Below are positions 1,993 to 37,450 of a stretch of 37,450 bases of DNA, one piece after another. The notes under the pieces were generated by a model. It was not told the DNA's origin, did not search any database, and saw only the letters and a program-made list of their open reading frames with translations. The stretch lies in NCBI GenBank assembly GCA_030528995.1, contig JAUMXR010000006.1:1-37450 (forward strand), written 5' to 3'. The stretch's first letter is position 1; each line of letters begins with the position of its first letter. Source of the stretch: Candidatus Saccharimonadota bacterium (lineage in GTDB: Bacteria; Patescibacteriota; Saccharimonadia; Saccharimonadales; Saccharimonadaceae). The translations under genes and the position numbers were made by a program.

Positions 1993-2177
1993 AAAAACCA
2001 TAATAACTTTTATTGGCTTGGATTTGTTTGCTTGTAATTATTACAACGCAAGTCAAGAAAAAATCTCCTTATTCGCCCTTCGGGCTGGGGGAGATTTTTT
2101 CATTGTTGAGTTGCAATAATCACGCAAACAAATCTGGTCTAAATCTCATTATACCAATAAAAGTTATTATAGTTTTT
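1993..2177. repeat. Long palindrome spanning the ileS stop codon and terminator
   Basis: Outer arms of 24 nt (1993-2016 and 2154-2177) are complementary with one mismatch. Inner arms 2021-2031/2124-2134 are perfect, and 2037-2047/2110-2120 have one mismatch. The centre is the terminator hairpin at 2058-2100. The right arm contains the last codons and TAA of ileS (2167-2169). The unpaired stretch is about 16 nt longer on the right side. Confidence 0.85.
2058..2100 (-). terminator. ileS terminator
   Basis: AAAAAATCTCC (2058-2068) pairs with GGAGATTTTTT (2090-2100). A small GCCCGAAGGGC hairpin lies in the loop, and the minus-strand transcript ends in six U. It forms the centre of the long palindrome 1993-2177. 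Confidence 0.8.
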
Positions 2178-5100
2178 CCAGAGATATCGTGATATTTTCA
2201 CCGTTTAGTTTGGCGGTTTCGGTGTGGGAGTAGGTGGCGTCTTTTGCGATGTCGGTGGCGCCGACTTCGGATTTGATGAGGTCTTCAAAGCCTACTGGTA
2301 GCATACAAGATACTGAAAGTTTGATTTGATCGTCTTGGCGGAGGTTGGCGTGCTTACGGGCGGATTGAATGGCGCGGATAAGCTCACGGGCTCTTCCCTC
2401 TTCTTTGAGTTCTGGAGTGAGGGTTTTGTCGAGCTTGAGTTCTTTGCCGTTTGTGACTTCTTTAACGTTGACTTCGTCGGCAATAATTTGTTCATAAAAA
2501 CCATCAAGCTTGTCGCCGTCGTAGGTGAGCTTAGAGAGTGGTTGACGGATTTTGATCTGATCCTCGGTGTCAGACTTCTGCATGCGGAGAGCTAAGGCAT
2601 CGGTGATGATTTGGCGAGTACGGGACATTTGTTCGAGGACGGCGGTATCTATCATGCCCGCTTCTGGCCAATCTTTGAGGTGGATGGAGTCGGTGTGGCC
2701 GGTGATTTTTTGGTATAATTCTTCGGCTAAGAATGGCGTAAAGGGGGCGAGGAGATGTGCTAGATAGGTTAATACATAATAGAGTGTGGCGAAGGCTTGT
2801 TTCTTGTCGGCTGCGTCGTCGTTTTTACTGAAGCGGCGACGAGAGCGACGGACAAACCAGTTACTCATGTCGTCGATAAATAGTAGGACACCTTCTAGGG
2901 CTTTAGGAATGTTGTACTCCTCCATACCTTCCGTTATTTCATCCCTTAGCTGATAGAGGCGCGAAATAATCCAGATATCTAGGGGATTCGAAATATTCAT
3001 TTTTCGACTCGCTTCGTCGCGCCCGTCGTTACGGGGCTCCTCGCTCATTCCGCTCCCGTTGTCGCGGACGGTCTCAAAATGAATATTTTCGAATCCGTTC
3101 GAATCTATATCTTCCACTTCGGCGTAGGTGGTGAAGAAGTCGTAGACGTTCCAAATCATGGCGAGTTTACGATTTACATCAGAGACGTCTTTATCGAGAA
3201 GGGCGAAGTCTTCGCCAGAGAGGACGGGAGAGCTAAGGAGAAGGAAGCGGAGAGCGTCAGCGGAATACTGGTCCATAAGTTCGTTCGGATCGGTGTAGTT
3301 GCCGAGGGATTTACTCATTTTGCGGCCGTCGTTCCCGGCGAGAGTGCCAGTAGTAATAACATTTTTGTAGGCGTTCTTGGCACCGTTTTTGGCTTTGTCG
3401 CCGAAGGCGCCAATAGAAGCAAGGGCGGTATTAACCGCGTGAACATAATAGAACCAGGCGCGAACCTGTCCGACATATTCAACGATGAAGTCGGCGGGGT
3501 AGTTTCGCTCGAATTTTTCCTTATTTTCGAATGGATAATGGAGCTGGGCGAACGGCATAGAGCCTGATTCGAACCAGCAGTCTAGAACCTTTTCGATGCG
3601 AGTAAAGTGTTCGCCGTCGATGTCAAATTCGATTTGGTCAACCCAAGGGCGGTGATAGTCATCTAGGCGCTGGCCAGAGAGAGCATAGAGTTCGTCGTAG
3701 CTACCAACTACTTTCACGGTGCCGTTGTCGCCTTTCCAGACGGGCATAGCGGTAGCCCAGAAGCGGTCGCGGGACAAATTCCAGTCGGGAGCGGCTTCGA
3801 TGTTTTTAGCGAAGCGACCGTGCTTTAAATAGGCTGGGAACCAATTGATATGTTCGTTTTCGTCGAGCATCAGTTGTTTCTGTCCTTCGATGTCGAAGAA
3901 CCAGCTTGGGAAGGCACGGTAGATGATGCGCTCTTTGCTGCGTGGATTATAGGGGTATTCGTGTTGAATATATTCGATTTTGTAAACAATTCCCTTTTCT
4001 TCTAGACATTTAGCAATAAACTTATTGCCAGCCCAAACTTGAATGCCGTTTTCGTCGGTGTCACGAACGCCGAGAGCATGAAGCTTGTCTGCCATTTCGA
4101 GTAAATAATAACCGTTTTCGTCGAGACAGTCCACGAAATCTACTTCGTATTTTTGGGCTAAGGCATAGTCGTCTTCACCGTAGGCTGGAGCGATATGGAC
4201 GATGCCGGTGCCATCTTCGGCAGAGACAAAATCACCGGGGAGGACAGTATAAGTGTCTTTGCGGGCAACCGTTCCCTGGTCACCACGAAGACCAAGGTCG
4301 AAAAGACCGTCAGCTACTTCGATGATGGGTTCGTATTTCTTGCCTACTAAGGCCGTACCTTTGAAAGCTTTTTCGGGTTTTTGGCCTTCGAACAATACTT
4401 TACCTCGCTCCAAAGCTACGATTAGTTTCTCACCATCGATGTTGTAAACACCGTAGTCTAAATCGGGGTTAACGGCAAGGGCCATGTTGGCCGGTAGGGT
4501 CCAAGGTGTGGTGGTCCAAGCTAACAGACATTCGTCGCCAGACTTGAATTTAACGTACGCCGATGGGTCGGTGACGGTTTGGTAGGCGTCATTATCCATG
4601 GTGACTTCGGCTTTAGAGACAGGGGTAGCAAATTTGGTGTCATACATCAATACCTTGCGGCCTTCGTAGATTTTGCCAGCCTCGTAGAGCTGTTTGAAAG
4701 CCCACCAGACAGATTCCATAAAGTCTTTGTTCATGGTGCGGTAGCAGTTATCAAAATCTACCCAACGGCCGACGCGGTCGATGGTGGCGCGCCAGGTTTC
4801 GGAGTTGGCAACCATGGATTCGCGAGCTTTGATGATGTAATCTTCGAGGGACCATTTAGTGCCGATGTCGCGACGGTCGGTAATACCGAGCTGTTTCTCG
4901 ACGAAGTTCTCGGCGGGAAGGCCGTGACAGTCCCAGCCCCAACGTCGCTCTACTCTGTAACCATTCATAGTCCAATAGCGTGGGACAGCGTCTTTGACGA
5001 TAGAGCTAAGTAGCGTACCATGATGAGGATTGCCAGTGATAAACGGAGGGCCGTCATAAAAAACGTAGGATTTATCAATCGGGCGGTTTTCGACCGATTG

Positions 5101-5187
5101 TTCAAAAGTTTTATGCTGTTTCCACCACTTGGTGAGGGCTTTTTCGTATTCTAGGCTACTCCGCCTGCTTCCTGCTCTATATTTCAT
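2167..5187 (-). CDS. ileS: Isoleucyl-tRNA synthetase, type 2 (eukaryote-like)
   Basis: 1006 aa, cytoplasmic, charges tRNA-Ile with isoleucine. The class I signatures are present: HHGT (HIGH motif) at about residues 55-58 and KMSKS at about 621. The WGWDCHGLPAEN segment and the absence of a C-terminal Cys-zinc module place it with the eukaryote-like IleRS, a group usually insensitive to mupirocin (family knowledge). The start was set at 5187: the frame is open 22 codons further, but the ATG at 5187 lies 7 nt after an extended -10 box and matches the usual IleRS N-terminus. Residues about 698-735, just before the conserved PLDIWIISRL, are an extra stretch encoded by a palindromic element (2984-3096). 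The 3' end lies inside another palindrome. Confidence 0.97.
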   Translation of the reverse strand: MKYRAGSRRSSLEYEKALTKWWKQHKTFEQSVENRPIDKSYVFYDGPPFITGNPHHGTLLSSIVKDAVPRYWTMNGYRVERRWGWDCHGLPAENFVEKQLGITDRRDIGTKWSLEDYIIKARESMVANSETWRATIDRVGRWVDFDNCYRTMNKDFMESVWWAFKQLYEAGKIYEGRKVLMYDTKFATPVSKAEVTMDNDAYQTVTDPSAYVKFKSGDECLLAWTTTPWTLPANMALAVNPDLDYGVYNIDGEKLIVALERGKVLFEGQKPEKAFKGTALVGKKYEPIIEVADGLFDLGLRGDQGTVARKDTYTVLPGDFVSAEDGTGIVHIAPAYGEDDYALAQKYEVDFVDCLDENGYYLLEMADKLHALGVRDTDENGIQVWAGNKFIAKCLEEKGIVYKIEYIQHEYPYNPRSKERIIYRAFPSWFFDIEGQKQLMLDENEHINWFPAYLKHGRFAKNIEAAPDWNLSRDRFWATAMPVWKGDNGTVKVVGSYDELYALSGQRLDDYHRPWVDQIEFDIDGEHFTRIEKVLDCWFESGSMPFAQLHYPFENKEKFERNYPADFIVEYVGQVRAWFYYVHAVNTALASIGAFGDKAKNGAKNAYKNVITTGTLAGNDGRKMSKSLGNYTDPNELMDQYSADALRFLLLSSPVLSGEDFALLDKDVSDVNRKLAMIWNVYDFFTTYAEVEDIDSNGFENIHFETVRDNGSGMSEEPRNDGRDEASRKMNISNPLDIWIISRLYQLRDEITEGMEEYNIPKALEGVLLFIDDMSNWFVRRSRRRFSKNDDAADKKQAFATLYYVLTYLAHLLAPFTPFLAEELYQKITGHTDSIHLKDWPEAGMIDTAVLEQMSRTRQIITDALALRMQKSDTEDQIKIRQPLSKLTYDGDKLDGFYEQIIADEVNVKEVTNGKELKLDKTLTPELKEEGRARELIRAIQSARKHANLRQDDQIKLSVSCMLPVGFEDLIKSEVGATDIAKDATYSHTETAKLNGENITISLEKL
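2984..3096. repeat. In-frame palindromic element inside ileS
   Basis: Arms GGATTCGAAATATTCATTTT (2984-3003) and its inverted copy (3076-3096, one extra T) enclose a GC-rich core. On the coding strand the core holds GAGACCGT near its start, then CCCGT-AACG-ACGGG. The same core layout occurs in argS (37280-37384) and in part in polA (27441-27564). The 113 bp add about 38 residues to IleRS without breaking the frame. Confidence 0.85.
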
Positions 5188-5194
5188 ATCTATT

Positions 5195-5203
5195 ATTATA
5201 ACA
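5195..5203 (-). promoter_or_regulatory. Extended -10 promoter of ileS
   Basis: Minus strand TGTTATAAT, 7 nt before the ATG at 5187. No good -35 at 16-18 nt. The message would be leaderless or nearly so. Confidence 0.7.
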
Positions 5204-5234
5204 CAAAGGACGCTTAAAGAGATTATCAATACAT

Positions 5235-5260
5235 AAAAATGGCGGTCTCGCAAGACCGCC
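5235..5260 (-). terminator. Terminator of the 122-aa membrane protein gene
   Basis: Perfect 8-bp stem GGCGGTCT/AGACCGCC with a 4-nt loop, followed on the minus strand by ATTTTTAT. It separates this gene from the ileS promoter. Confidence 0.85.
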
Positions 5261-8475: not shown

Positions 8476-11400
8476 CTATAAACCAGTCACACAGCGTATT
8501 GGGAAGCCATAGCCTTTCTCATTATAACCGCTAGAAACATTGGCCGGGAAGGCTTCATCTGGCTTGAGGGAGAAGAAGAATACAGAATTATTATTACTCT
8601 GGGCTAAGGCGGAATAGTACTCTGAATAATTTCCTAGATTATACACTATGCCATTGTCGGACACTGTACTGGAAAAAACATAATTATTAGGAAATGAACG
8701 GAACTTATTAGATGTAACGTGGCTACGATAGTTGCCTGCGACATCCATCTGTTCTGCGAAATAGTAAAAGCTACCTTTTATATTTTGATAACTCCCAAGG
8801 CCACCGTATGGTAATCTCCACCCCGTTGGACATAAATCGCCTTCGGTGGGTTCACCGGTGTTCCAAGAATAGGTACCATATCCCGCAGTAGCCGAATACC
8901 AGTTATAATAGTTTCCATAAGAGTAAGCCTTAATATTAAAGTTAGTATGGGCATATGGTCGAGAGGTGATCATGTTTTGAGTGAGGGAAGGAGTAATGTC
9001 GGCTGTCGTGTTGTCGGTATTAAGACGGGATTGGTTAAGACAGGCGGCAGAGTATTCGCGGCACCATCCATATGGAGCCGAAGTGGCATCAAATTGCTCG
9101 TTAGAAGAAGGTGAAAGAGAATTAGATTTAGTTGATGAACTGTAAATATTAGTAATAGGTAGAGTAGAATTATTGCTCTTTATATTAGTGTTTGAAGTGG
9201 ATAGCACTGTAGCTACTGTATTGCCATTTTCTTCGTGAGTATCAGCAAGCCTTAAGTTCTCTATCATCCAACAGGCACCGTCAACTAATTTAGCTACAGC
9301 ATAAACTTGGCCATCTCTAATATCTGTAAGGGCTGTAACGCTATTTCTAGATACGGCTAGAGTGCCAGTTGAACTATCGTAAGTAGTTGCGGTCATGGAG
9401 CTACATCCTGTCCAACTTTGAAGGTATACTGGATTACCGCCGTTAGTCTCAGCTGGTGCCCAGACGGCGTAAAGTGTAACAATTGGTGAGGCATTAAAGG
9501 CTGGAGCGGTAAATGTTTCGTTTGGTCCCCAGATTTTAGCATCGTTAGTATTGTCGTTGTCTGTGAGTTTACTCCAAGCATTGCTATCGGTACTCCAGCC
9601 CACGAAGCCATAGCCAGCTTTTTTGAAGTTAGAGGCGAAGAGGTCAAAGGTGTCGCCTTCGGATACATTGGTATGTGCTACCGATTTGATGCCTGTAGTT
9701 GCGTCAGTGGAACCCATACCGGTGCTATCATTATCAGAACCATTGCCTTCATATTGAACGGTATAGATTGGTGTCCAGTGAGCATAAAGCGTGATTTCGT
9801 CACCTGGATTAGCGCCTGTGATAGTATATGTGCTGCTCGTTAGATATGCTGTGCCAGTGCCGTCTGCATTAGTTGTCCATTCTTTGATTTTCCACCCAGA
9901 AAGATTAGTCCAGGTGTTGTAAGCCTTCAATGTGGCAGAACCATTGCCAGAGGAATTTAGGTTAATCTTTTGTGTCGATGTACTAGTGGATTTAGCATCC
10001 GTACAGTTAGCGTCGTTGGGTGCCCAAGTCTTACAATTATGTACATAAGTAATCGTATATTGTGGTACCCACTGAGCATAAAGGGTAATGGCGCCGTTTG
10101 GTTGGAGGTTAAGATTGTTGAGTGAGGCGCCGGCAGCAATGGAAGTGCCAGAACCATCAGCCGAAGTATTCCAGCTGTCAAAGGCCCAACCGTCCCTAAT
10201 GAAGCCATTGGTCATTGCATTAGTACTGTTTATTTCTACATTGGTTTGAGATGCAGTAGTGCCGGTTACTGGATATTCGGTAGTACCATTACCATCGTAA
10301 TTAACAGTAACAGTGCCATTATTGGCAATACATCTTACGGATTCACCGTATCTCTTGTAGTTGCTACTGTAGCTAGCAGTACTATAAGCCGTTGTGTAAT
10401 AAGCGTAAGATGCGCTGTAGTTCGTTGAAGTCCAGAGTCTAATAGCGCTGGTTTGAGACGTAAAGCTAGTGCCATTACGATAACCTGCATAGATAAAGCT
10501 ATATGGAGCGGCACTCATCTTGGCATAGGTGGTGTTACCGGAAACAGTTCTAAGATTGTTGTACTGTGTACTAGTTGGTAAGTCCCAACCTTTTGGACAG
10601 ATGGAAGTAGTGATGTTTTGAGAAGTAGAATAAGCTGTAGTAGAGGCAATAGCAGCGGCATAACTATAATAACTACCATAAGTATTATCCGTAAGTATCT
10701 TAGGGCTAACATAAGTAGCATCACTATTCGTAGTTTCAAAATCAGTAGTAGAGGCTGGAGCTTTGAAGGTGATACCCGTTGGAAGGTCAGTATCGTATGG
10801 GGTAAGAAGTACATCGGTGTTGTTGCCATAGTTTAGGTTCTTAGTAAGCCAAAGTTCGCCATCGGCTAGTTTAGCTACAGTATAAGATTGTCCATCACGA
10901 GCATCAATGAGATTATAAGTGCCAGTAGTTGCATCTGCTATGGAGAGACTGGCCTTCATGCCTGGTTTTACGTCTTGGAGACAAACTGCATCAGTGGACG
11001 CATTACCTGTACCGATAGTTGTAGCAGTAGGATTACAGCTATTATTGGTCCAGATGGCATAAAGGGTAGTATTTGGATTCTTGGTAGTAAAGCTGCTACC
11101 AGGTTGAGCTTCATTTCCTTTTTCATCCATCCAGCCAGCGAAAGTATAGCCAGAACGGGTGGGAACAGTATTAGTTATCGTAAAGGTTGCCAAACCATTA
11201 GCAGTAGTGGATTGCGAACCTGGAGCACTAGAACCGCCGTTAGCATCATAGGTTAAAGTATAAGTTTGCGAATCGGAATTGATACAACGGATAGTTTGTC
11301 CATAATGCTTTGAACTAGAACCTCCAGTACCTGGGAAAACATTTTCCGAAGAATACAAAGTGAATATATAAGAGGAGGTAGAAGAACTATGAGCCGTAGA

Positions 11401-13155
11401 TGTCCAGTAATCACCACGAAAACCATAATTGCCATAGCCACCGTTCCAAACGGCGCCAGAATAGGTATAATTATTTGGATATCTACGAAAGGCTTCATTA
11501 GCTGTATCACCAGCGATGTTTTTGGTAGTCGTATCATAGAAAGAAGTACCTGAATTTGGGTTACTTTCGTATGCACTTAACCCCATAATTTTGTAACCTA
11601 AGTTATAAAAATCACGATATGTTGACAATTCTCCGGTAACATTTACGCCACTTGTATTACCAGCTGGATAACCCTTTCCGCCGGTTGGTAAATGCCACCC
11701 GGCTGGACAAATAGATGTGCTTGTAGTTGAGTTGTTGTCTGTGTTATTAGGGGTTAAGTCCGCAATAGCGGCATGCCAAGTATAATAATTACCATAGCTA
11801 TACAGTGCTGAGTTGTTTTCCGTTGGGTTTAGTGCTCTGTTTTGTGTGTTTTTATTATTATAACGAGGAAATCTGGAGCCCGCATTGCTGGTGCCTATGT
11901 TTATTGTACCATTATTACCGTTTGTGCTATACATGCTATTGGCGACAGAACTAGCGCCGAACTTATCTGGAGTTTCTGGGTCAGCTAAGCCTCCGAAGTT
12001 ACCATAGGTAGCAGATGTGCCATAACCTTGAGCTAGCAGACCATCAGAATTGTGAGCCGCATCGTTGTCTAACCTTAGGTTCTCAATCATCCAGCACTTG
12101 CCATCAGCCAGTCTAGCTACAGCATAGGTATCGTTGTCACGTTGGTCAGTTAGGGCAGTGACGCTGTTTTTGGTGAGGTCTAGAGCTCCGGTATTTGAGT
12201 CGTAGGTAGAAGTATCTAGGTTGTTACAACCCATCCAGCCTTGGAGGTTGCCTTGGCTTTGTAGCCAGACGGCATAGAGTTTAACTATACCATCATTGTC
12301 AGTATCTAAGTCGGTAAATCCTGCTGGAAGAGTAACATCTTCTTGTGGACCATAGACGATTGGGTTATTGGTATTATCATTGTCTAGGAGTTTAGCCCCA
12401 GCATTTGGATCAGTACTCCAACCAGCAAAGCCATAGCCGGTTCTAGAGAAGTTACTAGCGACAAGAGAGACTGTATCACCATCTTTTACGCCAGTATGGA
12501 TTACTCCAGTACCAACTGCCCCCATAGTACCTTCATCAGCATTATTACCATCATAGGCAATGTTTACAGTAAGACATGTAGCATCCATCACTACGGTATA
12601 GGCAATGGAAGTATTGTTAGAGAAAGTATAACTACCAGGAGCCATGCTAGTATTTACGGCAGTACCATAGTAGACTGGGATGGTAGTATCTATATCACTG
12701 TCTGGACTGGCAGTTTGGGAAGGAGTCTTTAGTGTAGTGGGGGTGCTAGTGAGTGCTTTAAATACGCCTGTTCCACTATTTGCCGTCAAACTATATCCCC
12801 ATTTATTGGCATTAGCTGAGTTATTAAGAGCACTAGTACCGTTTACTGGAGAGAAGTAAGTACCGGATGTATTATTAGTGCTATCGCCATTGAGATATAG
12901 GTTATTATCAGTAGGTCCTGCTATAGTCATTGTATAACCAGCACGACAGTTGCTAATAATATTTACATTATCAGTTACAACCGTAGTTCCTATACCACCA
13001 TCTGCAGAAGGCATTACATTAGCTGTGACTGAGCCGGAAGTGGAGACGGTTAATGAATAGGCAGAGACGGAAGAAGAGTGATTCAAGGAGACAAAAACAC
13101 CTGTCAAAATAAAACCAATTACTGCGATAATGTTTGTGATTGTTTTCTTTTGCAT
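8476..13155 (-). CDS. Giant secreted FISUMP/Flg_new-repeat surface protein A
   Basis: 1559 aa. A signal peptide ends near SSVSAYS (about residue 33). Residues about 33-190 are a Thr/Ser/Asn-rich domain almost identical to that of protein B. Next come a Listeria/Bacteroides-type repeat (about 195-300, GYGFAGWST...LYAVW), FISUMP domain 1 (about 315-625, ALTDQRDNDTYAVARL ... ICPAGWHLPT ... IRCI), a repeat (about 630-703), FISUMP 2 (about 745-945), three repeats (about 948-1240) and FISUMP 3 (about 1250-1559). FISUMP domains belong to the C-type-lectin/sulfatase-modifying-like superfold of many surface ligands. There is no LPXTG or C-terminal membrane anchor, so attachment is unknown. It lies between ftsA and ftsZ, with its own promoter and AAGGTG before the ATG. 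Confidence 0.9.
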   Translation of the reverse strand: MQKKTITNIIAVIGFILTGVFVSLNHSSSVSAYSLTVSTSGSVTANVMPSADGGIGTTVVTDNVNIISNCRAGYTMTIAGPTDNNLYLNGDSTNNTSGTYFSPVNGTSALNNSANANKWGYSLTANSGTGVFKALTSTPTTLKTPSQTASPDSDIDTTIPVYYGTAVNTSMAPGSYTFSNNTSIAYTVVMDATCLTVNIAYDGNNADEGTMGAVGTGVIHTGVKDGDTVSLVASNFSRTGYGFAGWSTDPNAGAKLLDNDNTNNPIVYGPQEDVTLPAGFTDLDTDNDGIVKLYAVWLQSQGNLQGWMGCNNLDTSTYDSNTGALDLTKNSVTALTDQRDNDTYAVARLADGKCWMIENLRLDNDAAHNSDGLLAQGYGTSATYGNFGGLADPETPDKFGASSVANSMYSTNGNNGTINIGTSNAGSRFPRYNNKNTQNRALNPTENNSALYSYGNYYTWHAAIADLTPNNTDNNSTTSTSICPAGWHLPTGGKGYPAGNTSGVNVTGELSTYRDFYNLGYKIMGLSAYESNPNSGTSFYDTTTKNIAGDTANEAFRRYPNNYTYSGAVWNGGYGNYGFRGDYWTSTAHSSSTSSYIFTLYSSENVFPGTGGSSSKHYGQTIRCINSDSQTYTLTYDANGGSSAPGSQSTTANGLATFTITNTVPTRSGYTFAGWMDEKGNEAQPGSSFTTKNPNTTLYAIWTNNSCNPTATTIGTGNASTDAVCLQDVKPGMKASLSIADATTGTYNLIDARDGQSYTVAKLADGELWLTKNLNYGNNTDVLLTPYDTDLPTGITFKAPASTTDFETTNSDATYVSPKILTDNTYGSYYSYAAAIASTTAYSTSQNITTSICPKGWDLPTSTQYNNLRTVSGNTTYAKMSAAPYSFIYAGYRNGTSFTSQTSAIRLWTSTNYSASYAYYTTAYSTASYSSNYKRYGESVRCIANNGTVTVNYDGNGTTEYPVTGTTASQTNVEINSTNAMTNGFIRDGWAFDSWNTSADGSGTSIAAGASLNNLNLQPNGAITLYAQWVPQYTITYVHNCKTWAPNDANCTDAKSTSTSTQKINLNSSGNGSATLKAYNTWTNLSGWKIKEWTTNADGTGTAYLTSSTYTITGANPGDEITLYAHWTPIYTVQYEGNGSDNDSTGMGSTDATTGIKSVAHTNVSEGDTFDLFASNFKKAGYGFVGWSTDSNAWSKLTDNDNTNDAKIWGPNETFTAPAFNASPIVTLYAVWAPAETNGGNPVYLQSWTGCSSMTATTYDSSTGTLAVSRNSVTALTDIRDGQVYAVAKLVDGACWMIENLRLADTHEENGNTVATVLSTSNTNIKSNNSTLPITNIYSSSTKSNSLSPSSNEQFDATSAPYGWCREYSAACLNQSRLNTDNTTADITPSLTQNMITSRPYAHTNFNIKAYSYGNYYNWYSATAGYGTYSWNTGEPTEGDLCPTGWRLPYGGLGSYQNIKGSFYYFAEQMDVAGNYRSHVTSNKFRSFPNNYVFSSTVSDNGIVYNLGNYSEYYSALAQSNNNSVFFFSLKPDEAFPANVSSGYNEKGYGFPIRCVTGL

Positions 13156-17681: not shown

Positions 17682-20600
17682 TTATGTTGATGAAGTATTG
17701 ACACATCGAACACTTTGGCCCCAGTTTTTGGGGTAATCATTAGTTCCTGCATCAAGAAAATCAAGGCCTATATCAAAAGTCCAAGCATCAGCGCCATTAA
17801 GAGATGAAGTGGTCCAATAATAACCACTATAGCCACGGACAGGTGAAACGCCGCTACTACTATCCCTCGATCCAGAGAAAACATAATTATTAGGAAAACT
17901 CCTAATCTTTCTTGCGCTCTCTTCATTATCACTAGTGGCCGACATGCTATTGGCCAAATAGTAAAAACCGCCGCTAGCATTCCCATAAGAACCCTGACCA
18001 CCATGTGGCAAATGCCAACCCACAGGGCACAATGAAGTCGTCACATCATCGTGGGTATTAGGGGATGAATAGGCGGTAGTATCTGCAATTGCGGCTGCCC
18101 AAGTATAGTAATTACCGTATGAATAAACATAATTATTGAAATTTACTTTCTTAGTTGTTACTAAGTTTTGTGCCAAAGTAGGCGTAGTGGCAGATGCAGA
18201 ATTCCCGTTCCAAGTTATGTTATGGTTACTATAACGAGGGAAACTATAGCAGCTGCTCAGGTTACTAGAGTCGTAAAGGGAGTTTGAAGTTGTGTTGCAA
18301 CCGAAGTTAGTTTCCGGACTTGCCAAACCTACAAAAATCCCACCATAACCCTCGGATAAACTTTGGTTGGTTATACTACTATCATTAATATTGTTACCGA
18401 TGGTGCCACCGTCACTAAGTCTTAGATTTTCCATTAGACAACAATTCCCATCGGTTAATTTAGCTACGGCATAAACCTGATTATCTCTTTGATCGGTGAG
18501 AGCAGTCACGCTATTTTTTGCTACAGTAAGAGTCCCGTTGGAACTATTGTATGTCGTAGCAGTCATAGCGGAGCAGCCAGTCCAATTTTGGAGATATACC
18601 GGATTACCACCACTAGTCTCAGCAGGCACCCAAACAGCATATAGCGTAATGATAGGAGAATCATTATAAGCTGGTGTAACAAATAATTCGTTTGGGCCCC
18701 AAATTTTGGCATTGTTCGTGTTATCATTATCTATCAACTTATCCCACGCATCAGCATCCATACTCCATCCAATGAAACCATACCCGTCACGCTTGAAATT
18801 TGATGCGAACAAAGCGAAGCTATCACCTTCTGTAGCATTATAATGCCTTACGGTTTTAATACCGGTTTCAGCGCGGATGGATCCCATACCGGTACTAGCG
18901 TTATCTGCACCATTGCCGTCATACTGAATCGTATAACTTGGTACCCAGTGAGCGTAAAGGGTAATACCGTCGCCCGCGACCGAGCCGCTCGGAACGGTAT
19001 AGGTACTAGATACCGGGTAAGTAATGCCAGTGCCGTCGGCATTGGTATTCCAATCCTTTATTATCCAACCAGTGAGAGTCCATTTTTCATAGTCAGCAAG
19101 GGTACCCGTTTCGGTGCCAGCGCTAGGGTTATTAGCAAGATTAATCTTTTGCCAGGAAACTCTGTCAGTAAGGGGACTACAGTTCCCATCGCTACTAGCC
19201 CAGCTCATACAGTTATTTACATAAGTAATTGTGTACTGTGTATCCCATTGGGCGTAGAGAGTGATACCGATAGAACCAGCTGGGATGGCATAAGATGAAG
19301 TATAAGTCGCGCCAGAACCATCGCGCGCGGTGTTCCAGTTTCTAAAACCATGTCCAAGTACAGCGATGGAAGCTGAAGGATTGGAAGAAGAAGGCAATGT
19401 TACGGTACTAGCAGGTGCACCATAAACTCTAGATATTGCACCGGTGCCATTGTTAGAATCTAGAGTAATTTCTACTTCAGATGGATTTACGAGACAACGA
19501 ACGGCGGCACCTTCAATTGTATTGCCGTCTTTAACATTCCATCTAGCTGGGTTAAACCTAGCAGCTAACACATTAACATTGTATGAAAACATAGAAGATT
19601 GCTGCGTTCTGCTCCAATAGAAGCCATTAGAGCCTCTTTGCCCGGCACTTGAATTTTTGTAATACCCAGAATAGACATAATTATTCGGATAAGAACGAAG
19701 TCGGTTACTTATAATATCACCCCCTGCGCTTGCACCACTTTGATCACCCCCGGTTCCGCCATAACCTACGGAAAGTTTCCCAAATTCCCTATCGGCACTA
19801 TCCGTGAAAGAAGTTGATGGTAAATGCCAACCGGATGGACAAATAGATGTGCCGATGCTATTTGATGAATTTTCGTCCAGCCAAGCATGGGTATTTGCAA
19901 CCGACGCGGCATAGTTATAATAGTTGCCGTAAGATGAGATTGCAGAAGTTTTGTAAGCACCACTAATAGATGGACTAGAAGCATTGGTGTAACTCTCAGT
20001 GTATGTCGGATCTGACATAGGGGCTAAAGTATTACTGTTATTGTAGCGCGGGAGACGACGGCCTGGATAGCCATACGAACCAATATCTTCCAAGTTGCCA
20101 TTGCCATCATAGGTGTCAGTTGGTGAAAAGGCGGAAGTTTTATAAACAGAATTTGGGGTAGTAGAATAAATGAAGTTAGTTGATTCTGGTTCGGCTAGGC
20201 CAACAAAGTTACCATAAGCACCAGTTGTCCCTCCGTATCCCTGAGCTAGATATTGGTTGGTGACGCTTGGGTCGTTTTGATTCTGCCCCATGGTATATTG
20301 GTTATCTAGTCTGAGGTTCTCTGTCATCCAACAATTACCATCAGCAAGTCTGGCTACGGCATAAACCATGTTGTCACGTTTGTCGGTTAAGGCTACTACA
20401 CTGTTCTTAGTGGCAGTAATCTTCCTTTTTTCGTCTGTCACGGTATCGTCAAAGATTGTTTGGGTTAGAGTACTACATCCATCGTGAGGGAGATTAGTAT
20501 TTGGATTATCCCAGTCTTGGAAATAGACGGTGTTATTACTGCCATCTTTTAGAGCAGGCATCCAGACAGCATACATGGTAATGATGTTTTTGCTGTCTGC

Positions 20601-21464
20601 TGCAGCCATCATATCAGAGTCTACTATCACGTCCTCATTAGAACCATAGATAATTGGATCATTAGTATTGTCGTTGTCAGTGAAGTGGGCGTAAGCATTC
20701 TGGTCAGTGCTCCAGCCCAAGAAGCCATAGCCTGTCTTTTTAAAGTTGGGAGCGAGCAATGTGACTTTAGTATCCTCTGCAATGTTTATTTGTTTTACAC
20801 TTTTAACACCAGTAGATGAATCCGTAGTGCCCATGCCATTAGGATTGTCTGGGTTAGAGCCGTCATATTGGATGGAATACATGGTGCAAGAAGTATCCAT
20901 AACTACAGAATAGGTGACTGAGTTACTGTTTGAGAAAGTGTAGCTACCTGGTGCCATACTGCTATTTACGGAAGTACCATAATAGATGGGGATAGTGGTA
21001 TTAATATCCCTATATGGACTAGCAGTTTGAGATGGGGTTTTGAGAGTTGCTGCGGTGCTAGAAAGCGGAGTGAAGATCCCAGTTTTACTATTAGCCGTAA
21101 GGCTATAGCCCCATTTATTGACATTATTACTGTTGTTTAAGGCGCTAGTTCCATTTACTGGAGTAAAATATGTACCTGAAGCATTATTAGTATCATCACC
21201 ATTTAGATACAAATTATTATCAGAAGGTCCTGCGATAGTCATAGTGTATCCAGCACGACAGTTACTAATAATATTAACATTGTCAGTTACAACGGTAGTT
21301 CCTATACCACCATCAGCAGAAGGCATGACATTGGCTGTGACTGAGCCGGAAGTGGAGACGGTTAATGAATAGGCTGAGACGGAATCAGAATGCGTTAAAC
21401 ACACGCCTCCTAATACACTTAGCCCAATAACTGCGAAAACCTTTGTCTTTATTTTGTTTTGCAT
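17682..21464 (-). CDS. Giant secreted FISUMP/Flg_new-repeat surface protein B
   Basis: 1260 aa, paralogue of protein A. The signal peptide ends near DSVSAYS. The N-terminal domain up to about residue 190 is nearly the same as in A at both protein and DNA level. Then come a Listeria/Bacteroides-type repeat (about 195-305), FISUMP 1 (about 340-660, ALTDKRDNMVYAVARLADGN ... ICPSGWHLPS ... VRCL), three repeats (about 661-950, each ending in LYAQW, LYAHW or LYAVW) and a C-terminal FISUMP 2 (about 960-1260). It has one FISUMP domain fewer than A. There is no sortase motif or C-terminal anchor. The start has AGAGGA at good spacing. Function is probably surface display and ligand binding, by family analogy. 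Confidence 0.9.
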   Translation of the reverse strand: MQNKIKTKVFAVIGLSVLGGVCLTHSDSVSAYSLTVSTSGSVTANVMPSADGGIGTTVVTDNVNIISNCRAGYTMTIAGPSDNNLYLNGDDTNNASGTYFTPVNGTSALNNSNNVNKWGYSLTANSKTGIFTPLSSTAATLKTPSQTASPYRDINTTIPIYYGTSVNSSMAPGSYTFSNSNSVTYSVVMDTSCTMYSIQYDGSNPDNPNGMGTTDSSTGVKSVKQINIAEDTKVTLLAPNFKKTGYGFLGWSTDQNAYAHFTDNDNTNDPIIYGSNEDVIVDSDMMAAADSKNIITMYAVWMPALKDGSNNTVYFQDWDNPNTNLPHDGCSTLTQTIFDDTVTDEKRKITATKNSVVALTDKRDNMVYAVARLADGNCWMTENLRLDNQYTMGQNQNDPSVTNQYLAQGYGGTTGAYGNFVGLAEPESTNFIYSTTPNSVYKTSAFSPTDTYDGNGNLEDIGSYGYPGRRLPRYNNSNTLAPMSDPTYTESYTNASSPSISGAYKTSAISSYGNYYNYAASVANTHAWLDENSSNSIGTSICPSGWHLPSTSFTDSADREFGKLSVGYGGTGGDQSGASAGGDIISNRLRSYPNNYVYSGYYKNSSAGQRGSNGFYWSRTQQSSMFSYNVNVLAARFNPARWNVKDGNTIEGAAVRCLVNPSEVEITLDSNNGTGAISRVYGAPASTVTLPSSSNPSASIAVLGHGFRNWNTARDGSGATYTSSYAIPAGSIGITLYAQWDTQYTITYVNNCMSWASSDGNCSPLTDRVSWQKINLANNPSAGTETGTLADYEKWTLTGWIIKDWNTNADGTGITYPVSSTYTVPSGSVAGDGITLYAHWVPSYTIQYDGNGADNASTGMGSIRAETGIKTVRHYNATEGDSFALFASNFKRDGYGFIGWSMDADAWDKLIDNDNTNNAKIWGPNELFVTPAYNDSPIITLYAVWVPAETSGGNPVYLQNWTGCSAMTATTYNSSNGTLTVAKNSVTALTDQRDNQVYAVAKLTDGNCCLMENLRLSDGGTIGNNINDSSITNQSLSEGYGGIFVGLASPETNFGCNTTSNSLYDSSNLSSCYSFPRYSNHNITWNGNSASATTPTLAQNLVTTKKVNFNNYVYSYGNYYTWAAAIADTTAYSSPNTHDDVTTSLCPVGWHLPHGGQGSYGNASGGFYYLANSMSATSDNEESARKIRSFPNNYVFSGSRDSSSGVSPVRGYSGYYWTTSSLNGADAWTFDIGLDFLDAGTNDYPKNWGQSVRCVNTSST

Positions 21465-26021: not shown

Positions 26022-28418
26022 TTAGAGCTCGCCCCAACTATGCCCAGAAGTAACTTCAACGGCAAGTTTGATTTTGAGTTCAGGGGCAACGGATTCCATT
26101 TTGGTCTTGAGGACGGAGGAGACGGCGTCTTTTTGGGCTTCATCACATTCGACGATGAGGGAGTCGTGGACTTGCATGATGAGATTGGCGCCTTCCGGCA
26201 GAGCTTGGTCGACCATGAGCATGGCGCGTTTCATGAGGTCGGCTTCGGTACCTTGGATGGGCATATTCTGGGCGGCGCGTTCGGCGGCTTGACGAATGAC
26301 AAAATTGCTAGATTTAACATCTGGAGTGGGGCGACGACGGCCATAATAGGTTTCGACATAGCCTTGTTCCCTAGCCTGTTTGAGGATTTCATCTAATTTT
26401 TGCTTGATGGGGGCACGCAAGGCGAAGTAATTGTCAATAAACACTTTAGCTTCTGCGATGGGCATGTGGGCGGCGTCGGAGAGACCTTTGACGCTCATGC
26501 CGTATAGAATACCGAAGTTAATAACCTTAGCGGCACGGCGCTGTTCCTTGGTGACTTGGCCCATGGGGACATTAAAGGCTTCGGAAGCGGTCTTGGTATG
26601 GATATCAATATCGTGGTTGAAGTCGTCGATAAGAGCTTGGTCGCCTGAAAGAATAGCAGCAAGACGAAGTTCGAACTGCGAATAGTCGGCGGAGACCAAA
26701 ACCTTACCCTTTGGCGCAATGAAGCCTTGGCGAATACGTTTACCCTCCTCAGTGCGAACGGGGATGTTCTGGAGATTGGGGTCCTTGGAGCTGAGACGCC
26801 CGGTGGCGGTGACATTTTGGGTAAAGGTGGTATGAATGCGGTCGTTGTCGTCAGCAAGATCTGGCATAGGTATAATATAAGTGTTCAATAGCTTCGTGGC
26901 TTCGCGATATTCGATAATCTTGGCGATAATAGGATGAGCATCTTTTAGCTTGTCGAGCTCCTTGGCGCCAGTGGAATAACCACGAGTGGTTTTCTTGATA
27001 CCTTTAGCCGGAAGCTGAAGCTTAGAGAAAAGAACGTCAGAAAGCTGAACGGGGGAGTTGGGGTTAAAATCGACCCCCGCGAGAGCTTGAATCTCGCGTT
27101 CCAAAATAGCAACATCGGCGGCATATTCAGCTTCTAGTTGCTTGAAATATTTGCGATCAATCAACATACCTTTTCTTTCCATTTTGTAGAGTACTGGGAT
27201 GAGAGGAAGATCAAAATCAGTGTATATATTATATAATCGTGGATAATTTTGAAAGGCTTTGATTTGGTTCTGGTACTCTTCTTCGGGGACAACAAGTTGA
27301 GGAATGTCGCGTGCGAGGGGATTTAACAAAAAAGCGGCTTGACCGAGGTCCCAAAAGGACTCACCTGCAAGTATTTTTTCGGCCGTCTTCTCGTCATTGT
27401 GCATTAGGTGTTTAATGTCCCAATCGATAATCATATCTTTAGAAGACGAAGGACTGATAATTTCTCGGGGCGCGTCGCCGTCGCCCGTCGGCACGGGGAC
27501 GGCGCGCTCGTCCTCGCCTTGCCAGGCTCCGGATCCCCTCGAAATCACAGTCCCTTCGTCTTCTTTAGCAAATTTACGAATGAGAGAGTTAAACTCTAAT
27601 TTCTTCAGGGAGGAGATGACGCAGGGGCGGTCGAAGGTGAAGTCGGGGAGGTCGGAGAGACTCACGGGGGCGTCAAACATGATTTGAGCTAACTGTTTAG
27701 ACATATAGGCGGAGTCGCGGCCGGATTCGAGTTTGGTTTTGGTGGAACCAGAGATTTGGTCTATGTGGGCATAGATACCGTCGAGGTCCTGATAGTCGTT
27801 TAGGAGCTTAGCGGCGGTTTTCTCGCCGATGCCAGGAACGCCTGGGATATTATCAGAGGAATCACCTTTGAGAGATTTGAGGTCAAGGAATTGGGATTTC
27901 TTAATGCCATATTTGGCTTCGATTTCCGCAATATCGATTTGCTCAATGTTGCTAAAACCTTTGAGGATGCGCCACATATGAGTGTTACTGTCGACAATTT
28001 GAAGCATATCGAGGTCGGAAGAGATGATAAAAGTTTCCCAGTCGCCAGCGTCATCAGCTTGTTTACTCAAAGTACCAATGATGTCATCGGCTTCGTAATC
28101 TTCGATCTCAACAAAATCCCAGCCTAGGTCAAGTACTAGTTCTTTGAGCAAAGGGATCTGAGTGTAAAAATCTTCACCCGGCTTGACGCGACCAGCTTTG
28201 TAATCTTTGAAGATGGCGCGACGCTTAGAAGTGGAAGATTTGGAGTCCCAGGCGACGACGACTTTGGTGGGGTTTAACTTTTTGACGATTTCCATAGCGA
28301 TGGCAGCAAAGCCATAAACGCCACCCGTGGGAGTGCCGTCGGAGAGGCTAAGCGCGCCCATGGCGTAATAGCCACGATAGAAAACTGATTTGCCGTCAAT
28401 TAAAACTAGTCTTTTCAT
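26022..28418 (-). CDS. polA: DNA polymerase I
   Basis: 798 aa, shorter than E. coli (928). N-terminal 5'-3' exonuclease (about 1-280, MKRLVLIDGKSVFYRGYYAM and the acidic DYEADDIIG and SSDLDML motifs), a reduced middle region without recognisable 3'-5' exonuclease residues, and a complete polymerase domain: motif A DYSQFELRL (about 577), motif B RRAAKVINFGILYG (about 625-640), motif C QVHDSLIVE (about 747). Acts in repair and Okazaki-fragment processing. Residues about 286-326, between the exonuclease and the vestigial domain, come from a palindromic element (27441-27564). It is the last gene of a kinase-membrane protein-polA unit: the ATG begins 1 nt after the previous stop. Confidence 0.97.
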   Translation of the reverse strand: MKRLVLIDGKSVFYRGYYAMGALSLSDGTPTGGVYGFAAIAMEIVKKLNPTKVVVAWDSKSSTSKRRAIFKDYKAGRVKPGEDFYTQIPLLKELVLDLGWDFVEIEDYEADDIIGTLSKQADDAGDWETFIISSDLDMLQIVDSNTHMWRILKGFSNIEQIDIAEIEAKYGIKKSQFLDLKSLKGDSSDNIPGVPGIGEKTAAKLLNDYQDLDGIYAHIDQISGSTKTKLESGRDSAYMSKQLAQIMFDAPVSLSDLPDFTFDRPCVISSLKKLEFNSLIRKFAKEDEGTVISRGSGAWQGEDERAVPVPTGDGDAPREIISPSSSKDMIIDWDIKHLMHNDEKTAEKILAGESFWDLGQAAFLLNPLARDIPQLVVPEEEYQNQIKAFQNYPRLYNIYTDFDLPLIPVLYKMERKGMLIDRKYFKQLEAEYAADVAILEREIQALAGVDFNPNSPVQLSDVLFSKLQLPAKGIKKTTRGYSTGAKELDKLKDAHPIIAKIIEYREATKLLNTYIIPMPDLADDNDRIHTTFTQNVTATGRLSSKDPNLQNIPVRTEEGKRIRQGFIAPKGKVLVSADYSQFELRLAAILSGDQALIDDFNHDIDIHTKTASEAFNVPMGQVTKEQRRAAKVINFGILYGMSVKGLSDAAHMPIAEAKVFIDNYFALRAPIKQKLDEILKQAREQGYVETYYGRRRPTPDVKSSNFVIRQAAERAAQNMPIQGTEADLMKRAMLMVDQALPEGANLIMQVHDSLIVECDEAQKDAVSSVLKTKMESVAPELKIKLAVEVTSGHSWGEL
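27441..27564. repeat. In-frame palindromic element inside polA
   Basis: Arms 27442-27470 and 27535-27563 are inverted copies with a few mismatches (GAAGACGAAGG... both ends). On the coding strand the core has CCCGT-GCCG-ACGGG, the same hairpin as in the ileS and argS elements, and the encoded peptide keeps a TVISRGSG motif comparable to the ETV...G of the other two. The base composition is much more GC-rich than the surrounding gene. Confidence 0.8.
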
Positions 28419-35683: not shown

Positions 35684-36082
35684 ATGGCTAAATCAGAAGA
35701 AGCAAAAAAAATCGCAGAAAAACAAACTCTAAAAGAAGAATTTATTGAATTTATTAATCGTGGTTCGATGATTGACCTCGCAGTAGGTGTAGCAGTAGGT
35801 GGTGCGTTCACGGCGATTGTTAATTCCCTGGTCAATGATATCGTGATGCCGATTGTGGGGTTGCTGCTTGGTGGTGTAGATTTTACGGGTTTGGCGCTCA
35901 GAATTCCAAACTTTTTCGGAACAGGTGATGAGGCAGTAATTGCATATGGCAATTTCATCCAACATGTCGTACAATTCTTGGTCATTGCTTGGGTAATCTT
36001 TATGGTCATCAAGGCTATGAATCGCATGAATCGTAAACGTGATGCGAAGAAAGCTAAAAAAGAAGCTAGTAAAGCAGAATAG
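35684..36082 (+). CDS. mscL: Large-conductance mechanosensitive channel
   Basis: 132 aa. The family pattern is clear: N-terminal amphipathic helix (EEFIEFINRGSMIDLAVGVA), first pore helix with GGAFTAIVNSLVNDIVMP, a periplasmic loop and a second span (HVVQFLVIAWVIFMVIKAM), then a charged C-terminal helix. Forms a homopentameric emergency valve in the membrane. AAAGGAG sets the start. Together with MscS, the window carries both main osmotic release channels. Its last four codons and stop lie inside the left arm of the palindrome 36068-36238. Confidence 0.97.
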   Translation: MAKSEEAKKIAEKQTLKEEFIEFINRGSMIDLAVGVAVGGAFTAIVNSLVNDIVMPIVGLLLGGVDFTGLALRIPNFFGTGDEAVIAYGNFIQHVVQFLVIAWVIFMVIKAMNRMNRKRDAKKAKKEASKAE

Positions 36083-36238
36083 TTTAGTTTTTCAGCGTTG
36101 AAACATGCGCCGCATAAAAATTACAACAGATTAGGCGGACTCGTCCCGGTATTTCAGTACCGGCTACTCGTCCGTAACTGTTGTAATTTTTATCGGGCAG
36201 TTTCAAAATGCTTCAAAACTAAACTATTCTGCTTTACT
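36068..36238. repeat. Long palindrome joining the 3' ends of mscL and the YjbR-like gene
   Basis: Outer arms 36068-36091 and 36215-36238 are perfectly complementary over 24 nt; inner arms 36114-36129 and 36178-36193 over 16 nt. The centre holds a CCGGTA/TACCGG hairpin. Both stop codons (mscL TAG 36080-36082, YjbR-like TAA 36234-36236) lie in the arms. There is no T-run, so it is not a simple terminator. Confidence 0.9.
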
Positions 36239-36521
36239 GCGTTATGTTGTAGCTTAGGCGAATCAGGTCTTCGATTTCGGAGGGGCTGAGTTGGCCAGCG
36301 AGGACAATCTCGATGCCGCCTTTGCCATAATAGCGAGATTCCATAACGGATTCGTATTTGGTTTTGAGATTTTCGCTGAGACGTTGATCGCAGCGTACTT
36401 CGATGGTATTACGATGTAGGACTAGAAAGGCGAGTTGGCCACGGAAATAAAGAACGCGGTCTTTTTCTTGCTGCACAGTGAATTCACCGATGCCGGCTAT
36501 TTTAGAAACGTCAAGTACCAT
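36234..36521 (-). CDS. MmcQ/YjbR-family protein
   Basis: 95 aa. The pattern YFRGQLAFLVLHRNTIEVRC, then a KTKYESVMESRYYG segment and a terminal LSPSEIEDLIRLSYNI fits the small MmcQ/YjbR family (CyaY-like fold, possible DNA-binding; function poorly known). It is at the short end of the family. The ATG lies inside the last 25 nt of orn, after AGGAG, so the two are coupled. The TAA is supplied by the arm of the palindrome 36068-36238. Confidence 0.75.
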   Translation of the reverse strand: MVLDVSKIAGIGEFTVQQEKDRVLYFRGQLAFLVLHRNTIEVRCDQRLSENLKTKYESVMESRYYGKGGIEIVLAGQLSPSEIEDLIRLSYNITQ

Positions 36522-37027
36522 TTGAGCTCCTCGATTGAACCATTTATGTCATCCAAAGCACGGTGGTTCTCCGGTTTGGCAAATTTCTTGTGCAAAGCGT
36601 TTTCAAAATAGATCTTCCAGGCGGAAACATCAAGCATACTGTAGTGAAGCTTGTCGTTTAAAGCGGGCATTTCGTTTTCGATAAATTTGCGATCTTGATG
36701 GACAGAATTGCCAGCAAGGTAAATGGGGTTTTTGGTGTCGAAATTATGCTTAATGAAATCGAGCAATTCCCTTTCGACAGTTTCCACTGGCTTGCCGTTG
36801 GCATTTTGCGAAATGAGAGCGTCGCGCGAATTACTGTTTTTCTCCCAGAATTCACCGACCATGCGTTCTTTGATGAGTTCGTCGTTGACTTTGACGATGG
36901 CTTCATAGGTCGCAATTTGATTAAGCTCCATGTCGGTAGCAATGGCGGCAACTTCGAGGATTTTGTCTTTGGCTGGGTCTAGGCCAGTCATTTCTAAGTC
37001 TATCCAAAGCAGGGTGGCTTTTTTCAT
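36497..37027 (-). CDS. orn: Oligoribonuclease
   Basis: 176 aa. DEDDh 3'-5' exoribonuclease that finishes RNA decay by degrading oligonucleotides of 2-5 nt. Visible: LLWIDLEMTGLD (first D and E), AGNSVHQDRKFIE (middle D), and ENHRALDDINGSIEEL (H and last D). Length is normal. The ATG overlaps the argS stop as TAATG with GGAGG just upstream, giving strong translational coupling argS-orn-YjbR. If the DHH protein at 21566 is inactive, Orn is the likely route for this step. Confidence 0.96.
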   Translation of the reverse strand: MKKATLLWIDLEMTGLDPAKDKILEVAAIATDMELNQIATYEAIVKVNDELIKERMVGEFWEKNSNSRDALISQNANGKPVETVERELLDFIKHNFDTKNPIYLAGNSVHQDRKFIENEMPALNDKLHYSMLDVSAWKIYFENALHKKFAKPENHRALDDINGSIEELKWYLTFLK

Positions 37028-37450
37028 TACATTTCCTCCGGAATTGTGATTCCTAAAATATTTAGACCATGGGTCATGACGCTCAGATACTTCTCGACGA
37101 GTTTGATGCGTGCAGATTCTTGGTCGCTGCCGATGACCTCGCAGTGTTCGTAGAAACGACTAAAAGCTTGGGCGAGTTCGTACAGGAAATTTGCCACTTT
37201 GTGAGGGGCAAGTTCGGCGACTGCCTCGTCAAGTACTGCGCGGTATTCCAGAAGTTTTTTGATTAGACTTCTCTCGCTTGAATGAAGGTTTTTCGACCCC
37301 GTTCGTTCGCGCCCGTCTTCACGGGGCTCACTCTCTTCGCTCGGGCAGCCGCCCTCGCGGGACACGGTCTCTAAACCTTCATTCTGCGCGAGATTCTTAT
37401 CAAGAATCTTCTTGGCGCGGACGCAGGAGTAGAGGAGGTAGGGGCCGGAG
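37027..37450 (-). CDS. argS: Arginyl-tRNA synthetase, C-terminal part (N-terminus off window)
   Basis: About 141 codons are visible, running to the right edge with no start. The end has the class I ArgRS anticodon-binding domain: GPYLLYSCVRAKKIL (the QYAHAR region), LIKKLLEYRAVLDEAVAELA, FLYELAQAFSRFYEHCEVIG, and the ending GLNILGITIPEEM. Charges tRNA-Arg. The stretch between AKKIL and SERSLIKKLLEY includes about 35 residues encoded by a palindromic element (37280-37384) placed in a normally short loop. It is first in the visible argS-orn-YjbR unit. Confidence 0.93.
   Translation of the reverse strand, partial: SGPYLLYSCVRAKKILDKNLAQNEGLETVSREGGCPSEESEPREDGRERTGSKNLHSSERSLIKKLLEYRAVLDEAVAELAPHKVANFLYELAQAFSRFYEHCEVIGSDQESARIKLVEKYLSVMTHGLNILGITIPEEM
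37280..37384. repeat. In-frame palindromic element inside argS
   Basis: Perfect 12-bp outer arms GAATGAAGGTTT (37280-37291) and AAACCTTCATTC (37373-37384). On the coding strand the core reads GAGACCGT, then GAGCCCCGTGAAGACGGGCG near its middle (hairpin CCCGT-GAAG-ACGGG) and GTCGAAAAA at the far side, which matches the ileS element closely although the arms differ. Confidence 0.85.

Follow-up and report, generated by a model that had tools for sequence, protein, structure and literature searches.

How does a repeated element come to carry outer arms that differ from copy to copy and pair with each other in every copy? The argS gene at one end of the window, as we call the whole analyzed stretch of 37,450 nucleotides, raises this question. 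A palindromic element had been predicted there from the sequence, with the core of a similar element in ileS and arms of its own. Two origins were offered for such arms: the hairpin may be under selection, at the RNA or DNA level, or the insertion process may copy the target as an inverted sequence.

The argS insert and its folded core

Direct reading places the element exactly where the original prediction had it (Table 1). It is 105 bp long, the argS sense strand is the minus strand, and the open frame at 37027-37449 contains it; in a family-model search the DALR_1 domain of ArgS spans the insert, whose predicted translation gives, for example, the peptide SREGGCPSEESEPR. On the forward strand, GAATGAAGGTTT (37280-37291) and AAACCTTCATTC (37373-37384) form a perfect 12-nt inverted repeat flanking an 81-nt core, and the claim of outer arms that are fully complementary to each other and differ between copies is borne out. 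The RNA of the argS strand folds at -63 kcal/mol, compared with a shuffle mean of -38.6 (z = -7.4; 0/200 shuffles as good). In one other species, the 5' half of the argS insert is partly duplicated in tandem with the frame kept (L101:1745-1860 and upstream).

Table 1. Features of the window, with positions counted from its first letter
Feature	Position	Strand	Remarks
argS element	37280..37384	-	three-way-junction palindromic insert; read directly; in frame with the anticodon-binding part of argS
argS 5' arm, sense GAATGAAGGTTT	37373..37384	-	12/12 complementary to 37280-37291; co-varies in orthologs
argS 3' arm, sense AAACCTTCATTC	37280..37291	-	direct reading
argS P3 hairpin CCCCGTGAAGACGGGCG, invariant	37310..37326	-	pattern identical in 17/17 copies found by pattern
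ileS element	2984..3096	-	arms 2984-3003 and 3076-3096; in frame in ileS 2167-5253
polA element, third copy	27441..27564	-	in frame in polA 26022-28418
Intergenic palindromic element	36051..36255	.	different core family; downstream of the 35684-36082 ORF (mscL-like); copy-specific complementary arms
Two large homologous putative surface proteins	8476-13155 and 17682-21464	-	repeated domains; 73% identical over 300 nt

The argS, ileS and polA inserts are all in frame and free of stop codons. The argS and ileS copies had been said to match over most of their core; a common core is indeed present, but the match is strong in parts only (GAGACCGT, the CCCCGTnnnGACGGGCGCGA hairpin and GTCGAAAA), and what the two have in common is structure more than continuous sequence. 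This structure is a three-way junction. Its P1 stem is GAGGGGC...GTCCCGA, its P2 hairpin is interrupted by a GGA/GA internal loop, and its P3 hairpin bears the nearly invariant CCCCGTnnnGACGGGCGCGA (the conserved hairpin is also given as CCCCGTnnnGACGGGCG); tandem GA/GA mismatches recur in the core stems. Copies at L140:548-711, L181:5942-6068, L187:5048-5181 and L251 have extra hairpins nested within P3. A covariance-model scan of the window with Rfam 15 returned a tRNA as its single match, and the palindromic element matches no described RNA family.

MAFFT alignments made without structure gave no useful consensus fold, and a hand-set structure was required. In an alignment of 62 copies this structure is 87% paired, an upper bound because the alignment was fitted to the model, and 30 of 33 pairs have changed on both sides; sliding the partner by 1-3 columns lowers pairing to 35-46%. 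All seven outer-arm pairs have changed on both sides, with 91% paired. By eye, the arms often show a pair of staggered bulges of one base each: a T protrudes from the 3' side after ~6 bp, and the 5' side has an A or G 4-6 bp beyond it. The pair resembles a bulge-helix-bulge motif, but the open frames led us to dismiss splicing.

The intergenic palindrome in the window is very stable (z about -13 to -15). Its core has at least four copies in the genome, and in the copies examined the arms again differ and pair. That a second, unrelated core obeys the same rule suggests that the rule is independent of core sequence. An insert related to this palindrome sits in frame in a cation-ATPase-like gene (L308).

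Copies across genes and genomes

A pattern describing the core hairpin alone, CCCCGTNNNGACGGGCG, found 17 exact matches in the 873-kb genome and none in a reversed control. This search is blind to the arms and so tests their pairing fairly: both flanks are assembled for 16 of the 17 matches, and all 16 fold with paired arms that differ between copies. A covariance model built from seven copies, calibrated briefly and with rough E-values, found 22 matches in the same genome, 19 of them full-length at E <= 1.1e-7. Since the model contains the arm pairs, copies found with it are biased toward paired arms, and the CCCCGTNNNGACGGGCG search serves as the unbiased check.

The element occurs in all 17 sampled genomes of the genus, in 48/199 genomes and 14/61 genera of the family, and in 7/380 genomes of a phylum sample, six of these again in the same family. 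Named relatives are Candidatus Saccharibacteria, many from the ruminant gut. The comparisons rest on species-level assemblies, mostly metagenome-assembled genomes (MAGs), and each named relative is either a MAG or an uncultured isolate from a metagenome project, as an assembly or binning artefact would have it; we give that explanation almost no credence, given that sites and cores recur across many independent assemblies and hosts, that frames are kept and that orthologous copies diverge at the codon level. In another genus (L239, L240; also G068, G109) the elements are intergenic, for example beside groES/groEL, and form divergent pairs 60-290 bp apart, in contrast to the single in-gene copies described here.

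Twenty of the 22 matches in the genome lie in open frames, nearly all of housekeeping genes: uvrB, ligA, a tRNA-methyltransferase-like gene, mnmA, polA, miaA, rarA, rlmD-like, iscS-like, dusB, tgt, recX, ileS, rluB-like, tlyA-like, tyrS, leuS, tatD, gyrA and argS. These names were assigned by inspection of translations, with a family-model check for argS, ileS and polA only. Comparing the strands of hit and frame gives 11 sense and 9 antisense copies, with three matches that are partial or weak (leuS, tatD and gyrA) counted in. Among the retrieved loci, one open frame spans 53 of 62 copies, and this preserved reading frame argues against byp-like translational bypassing, in which an untranslated insert would be skipped by the ribosome. 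The idea that the core lacks stops in every frame, as a domesticated coding element might, was not supported: there are 4.0 stops per element over six frames and 4.2 in shuffled sequence.

The same landing sites recur across the genus. The ileS open frames mostly have ~950 to 1200 codons and are nearly all stop-free. At the tgt site, 19/30 orthologs hold inserts of several families and 11/30 a plain linker of 17-24 residues; inserts are as common at the rluB site. Two further kinds of insert were seen at these two sites, one with GGGTGACG...GGCAGGACCC ends around a GC-rich stem (L130, L131, L139, L141, L143, L253, L254, L258, L263) and a short one, GAGGACCRTAAGCNTGGGCGAGCGCCC..GAGCGTGTCCGA, with the same GA/GA outer motif (L133, L134, L142, L145, L255, L265, L267).

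Origin and maintenance of the arms

Within the 19 full copies of the genome, the best partner of each 5' arm is its own 3' arm (19/19 rows and columns), with a mean duplex energy of -24.6 kcal/mol compared with -8.9 kcal/mol for other partners. The tgt and rluB cores are 100% identical with arm identities of 0.39/0.50, and across tgt, rluB, tlyA and dusB the cores are 91-100% identical with arms at about chance identity. For the 22 pairs of copies with a core identity of at least 0.8, mean arm identity is 0.49, about that of a gapped alignment of unrelated 18-mers. Core identity thus reaches 1.00 alongside arm identities of 0.28-0.67, and terminal inverted repeats are not common to the copies. 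Unrelated arms beside an unchanged core indicate that the arms do not belong to the element, since arms carried along with it could not diverge so completely.

An ileS site shows where they may come from. In the insert-free L193, AAGCTAGTAGATGCGGATTCAG is followed directly by AATATATGC (also written AAGCTAGTAGATGCGGATTCAG AATATATGCTAGCT); the filled site of L194, whose flanks are 89% identical, reads GCGGATTCAG, then GGAATAG-core-GCTATTC, then CTGAATCCGC and GTATATGC. The left part is the same as in L193, and CTGAATCCGC is the reverse complement of GCGGATTCAG. From this comparison the 5' arm appears to be native gene sequence and the 3' arm its inverted copy. Three sequences with inserts at the same site (L163, L164, L096) point in the same direction when set against ~50 insert-free sequences, many reading KLxDSDEYxLA. 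The pairs L199/L200 and L198/L183 agree on arm direction, and L183 and L200 may be deletion products. The reading of L192 as an insert-free site whose 3' arm is native was rejected after many more sequences at that position had been compared; L192 and L073 hold part of the inverted 3' arm (PESAYMLA) and no core, and are best read as deletion remnants. With 89% identity in the closest pair, and with several sites that look empty but may be remnants, we infer the native arm from few clean cases. At several sites the copy apparently joins up with the gene again through a few shared bases (AATCC in the genome's own ileS, CTACC in its own rluB).

These comparisons bear on two other accounts of the arms. 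The element might target inverted repeats or palindromes that were already there, as some insertion sequences target hairpins, which would make both arms native. Some arms are themselves near-palindromic (uvrB ATTGGCAAT, rluB TTTTGCAAAA) and several families use the same sites, which speaks for this account; we nevertheless find it improbable, because L193, at its empty ileS site, shows the 5' arm without the 3' arm, and because perfect inverted repeats of 12-20 nt are unexpected at the insertion points of ~20 housekeeping genes. Equally improbable is an ordinary transposon of the MITE or Rickettsia-palindromic-element kind, with its own terminal inverted repeats, a transposase acting in trans and arms that are its diverged ends. 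Size, in-frame gene insertion and the multiple families do resemble Rickettsia palindromic elements (PMC10969869), but divergence cannot give arms of chance identity on identical cores, L193/L194, the cleanest empty/filled pair, shows no direct target-site duplication at this one site, and a search for the Y1 transposase family found it absent from 20/20 genomes of the genus.

Once in place, the arms stay paired. The argS insert is common to four species (the window, L100, L101 and L103), and the orthologs have five arm pairs changed on both sides, the compensatory changes that had been proposed as a check; 96% of cells are paired, compared with 27-53% for a slid partner. Free drift without pairing, named in the original prediction as its refuter, was looked for in these four orthologs and not seen. 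Some of these substitutions also change the encoded residues in both arms (QNEGL/KNLHS vs QDEGL/RDLHP). Arm maintenance of this kind could reflect selection or arm-to-arm copying.

The cores, meanwhile, flip. At the first ileS site, L199 and L200 have the same arms around an inverted core, and identity rises from 0.62 to 0.79 when the core is re-inverted. At the rluB site, core inversion raises the identity of L244 and L246 from 0.62 to 0.84 (core 0.96), and the cores of L244 and L245 are 0.91-0.96 identical to those of L246 and L248 after inversion. Both signatures of template switching at inverted repeats, arm homogenisation and spacer inversion, are present.

Selection at the RNA level would have the folded mRNA element, or a small RNA cut from it, be functional and compensatory substitutions keep it paired. 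The strong covariation in P1, P2, P3 and the arms, the compensatory changes in the argS arms and the very stable fold all fit this reading, which we consider unlikely on other grounds: about half of the copies in the genome are antisense, where the mRNA carries the complement and GA/GA motifs turn into TC/TC, cores flip orientation in place, the element is missing from some orthologous sites, and unrelated arms sit on identical cores. Core inversion between shared arms, together with the 11:9 split of sense and antisense copies, makes us prefer an explanation at the DNA level to one by a specific mRNA hairpin. Of the two origins first offered, insertion with inverted copying of the target gains support from the chance-identity arms on 91-100% identical cores and from L193/L194; hairpin selection at the RNA level, not needed to explain the arms, is the less likely of the two.

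A proposed mechanism and its relation to known systems

We consider it fairly probable that the argS element is a coding insert resembling Rickettsia palindromic elements (RPEs), in which fold-back template switching on host DNA creates the arms and maintains their match. A self-folding mobile or repeated element of ~100 bp, residing in gut Candidatus Saccharibacteria, would survive in genes when in frame and stop-free. Its core, joined to a host 3' end, would fold back on a short inner stem (e.g. TCTTCT/AGAAGA); DNA polymerase would extend the folded end, copying the adjacent host strand into an inverted arm, and synthesis would then rejoin the original template downstream through a few matching bases. 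Later rounds of template switching may hold the two arms to one sequence, flip the core and, now and then, remove most of the element so that a remnant is left. Arm homogenisation and spacer inversion are both known outcomes of such switching between the arms of inverted repeats (PMC8604942).

Several points weigh against this explanation. Published coding template-switch spacers are a few bases long (PMC8604942) and those here ~80; the inversions could be independent reinsertions between existing arms; the closest empty/filled pair is 89% identical, short of strain level; and the core's covariation needs an explanation beyond template switching. Such covariation suggests that a protein or RNA may recognise the shape of the core. 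Possible, though doubtful, is a class of mobile element that copies the adjacent host strand as it integrates: a structured core on a host 3' end would snap back, the second terminal repeat would be made from the target, a putative enzyme would recognise the three-way junction, and the route would be common to several unrelated Saccharibacteria cores. Every insertion would then build its own custom inverted repeat.

Searches for the Y1 and RVT_1 families in 20 genomes of the genus identified no mobilising enzyme. A Y1/HUH transposase was ruled out, with Y1_Tnp (PF01797) in 0/20 genomes and control genomes positive. RVT_1 was found in only 14/20 and is missing from G200 and G215, among others; as both carry element matches (argS L106 in G200; tgt L135 and argS L101 in G215), RVT_1 and the element do not correlate, and a reverse transcriptase was rejected as mobiliser. 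Viral contigs were likewise rejected as carriers, with 0 exact core matches in IMG/VR. The genome itself has reverse transcriptase genes of ~385 codons at G000:C23:28485-29195 and C49:8541-8804.

Although Saccharibacteria genomes are tiny, peptides of ~25-50 residues derived from such elements occur in many of the essential enzymes (tRNA synthetases, DNA polymerase I, UvrB, tRNA modification enzymes), different families often occupying one site across species. This amounts to a large natural experiment in protein tolerance and a source of new protein sequence. The element seems to remake its own ends from its landing site, and such site-custom arms suggest an insertion chemistry distinct from terminal-repeat transposition. 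A limited literature search found no paper that describes palindromic elements, or repeats inserted in frame, in Saccharibacteria.

Among known systems, miniature inverted-repeat elements (MITEs) are likewise short and non-autonomous with inverted-repeat ends. MITEs share terminal repeats and make target duplications, whereas the element described here has neither (for duplication, at L193/L194 only). REP/BIME sequences with RAYT (Y1) transposases are also dispersed palindromic repeats with imperfect stems; REPs, however, are 20-40 bp long and extragenic (PMC3733652), while the Saccharibacteria element lies in genes (20/22 in open frames) of a genus with Y1_Tnp in 0/20 genomes. Quasipalindrome template-switch mutation shares arm homogenisation and spacer inversion in coding DNA (PMC8604942, PMC7202029), but it is a mutational process rather than an element, with spacers of a few bases instead of ~80, and here the arms are apparently made anew at each insertion. 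The coding palindromes of nematomorph mitochondria are long inverted repeats inside translated genes, with arms that are kept perfect, for which template switching or repeat conversion has been proposed; each of their arms codes for a conserved region of protein, and we found no mention of a core sequence common to them, in contrast to the dispersed conserved core found between arms in Saccharibacteria (PMC6649704).

The nearest kind are the RPEs (also known from Wolbachia as Wolbachia palindromic elements), hairpin-forming repeats of ~100-150 bp in several families that enter unrelated genes in frame and are apparently translated (PMC10969869). The Saccharibacteria element has the same in-frame insertion in unrelated genes (20/22) and a stable palindromic fold of about 100-150 bp; an NCBIfam search with the argS, ileS and polA proteins at E<=1 gave no RPE model among the matches, for these three proteins and a library that may hold none. 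It differs from RPEs in its phylum and in that the core alone is shared, with host-derived arms that are kept paired. RPEs are reported to lose repeat identity over time, whereas the Saccharibacteria arms are remade and kept equal (PMC6649704).
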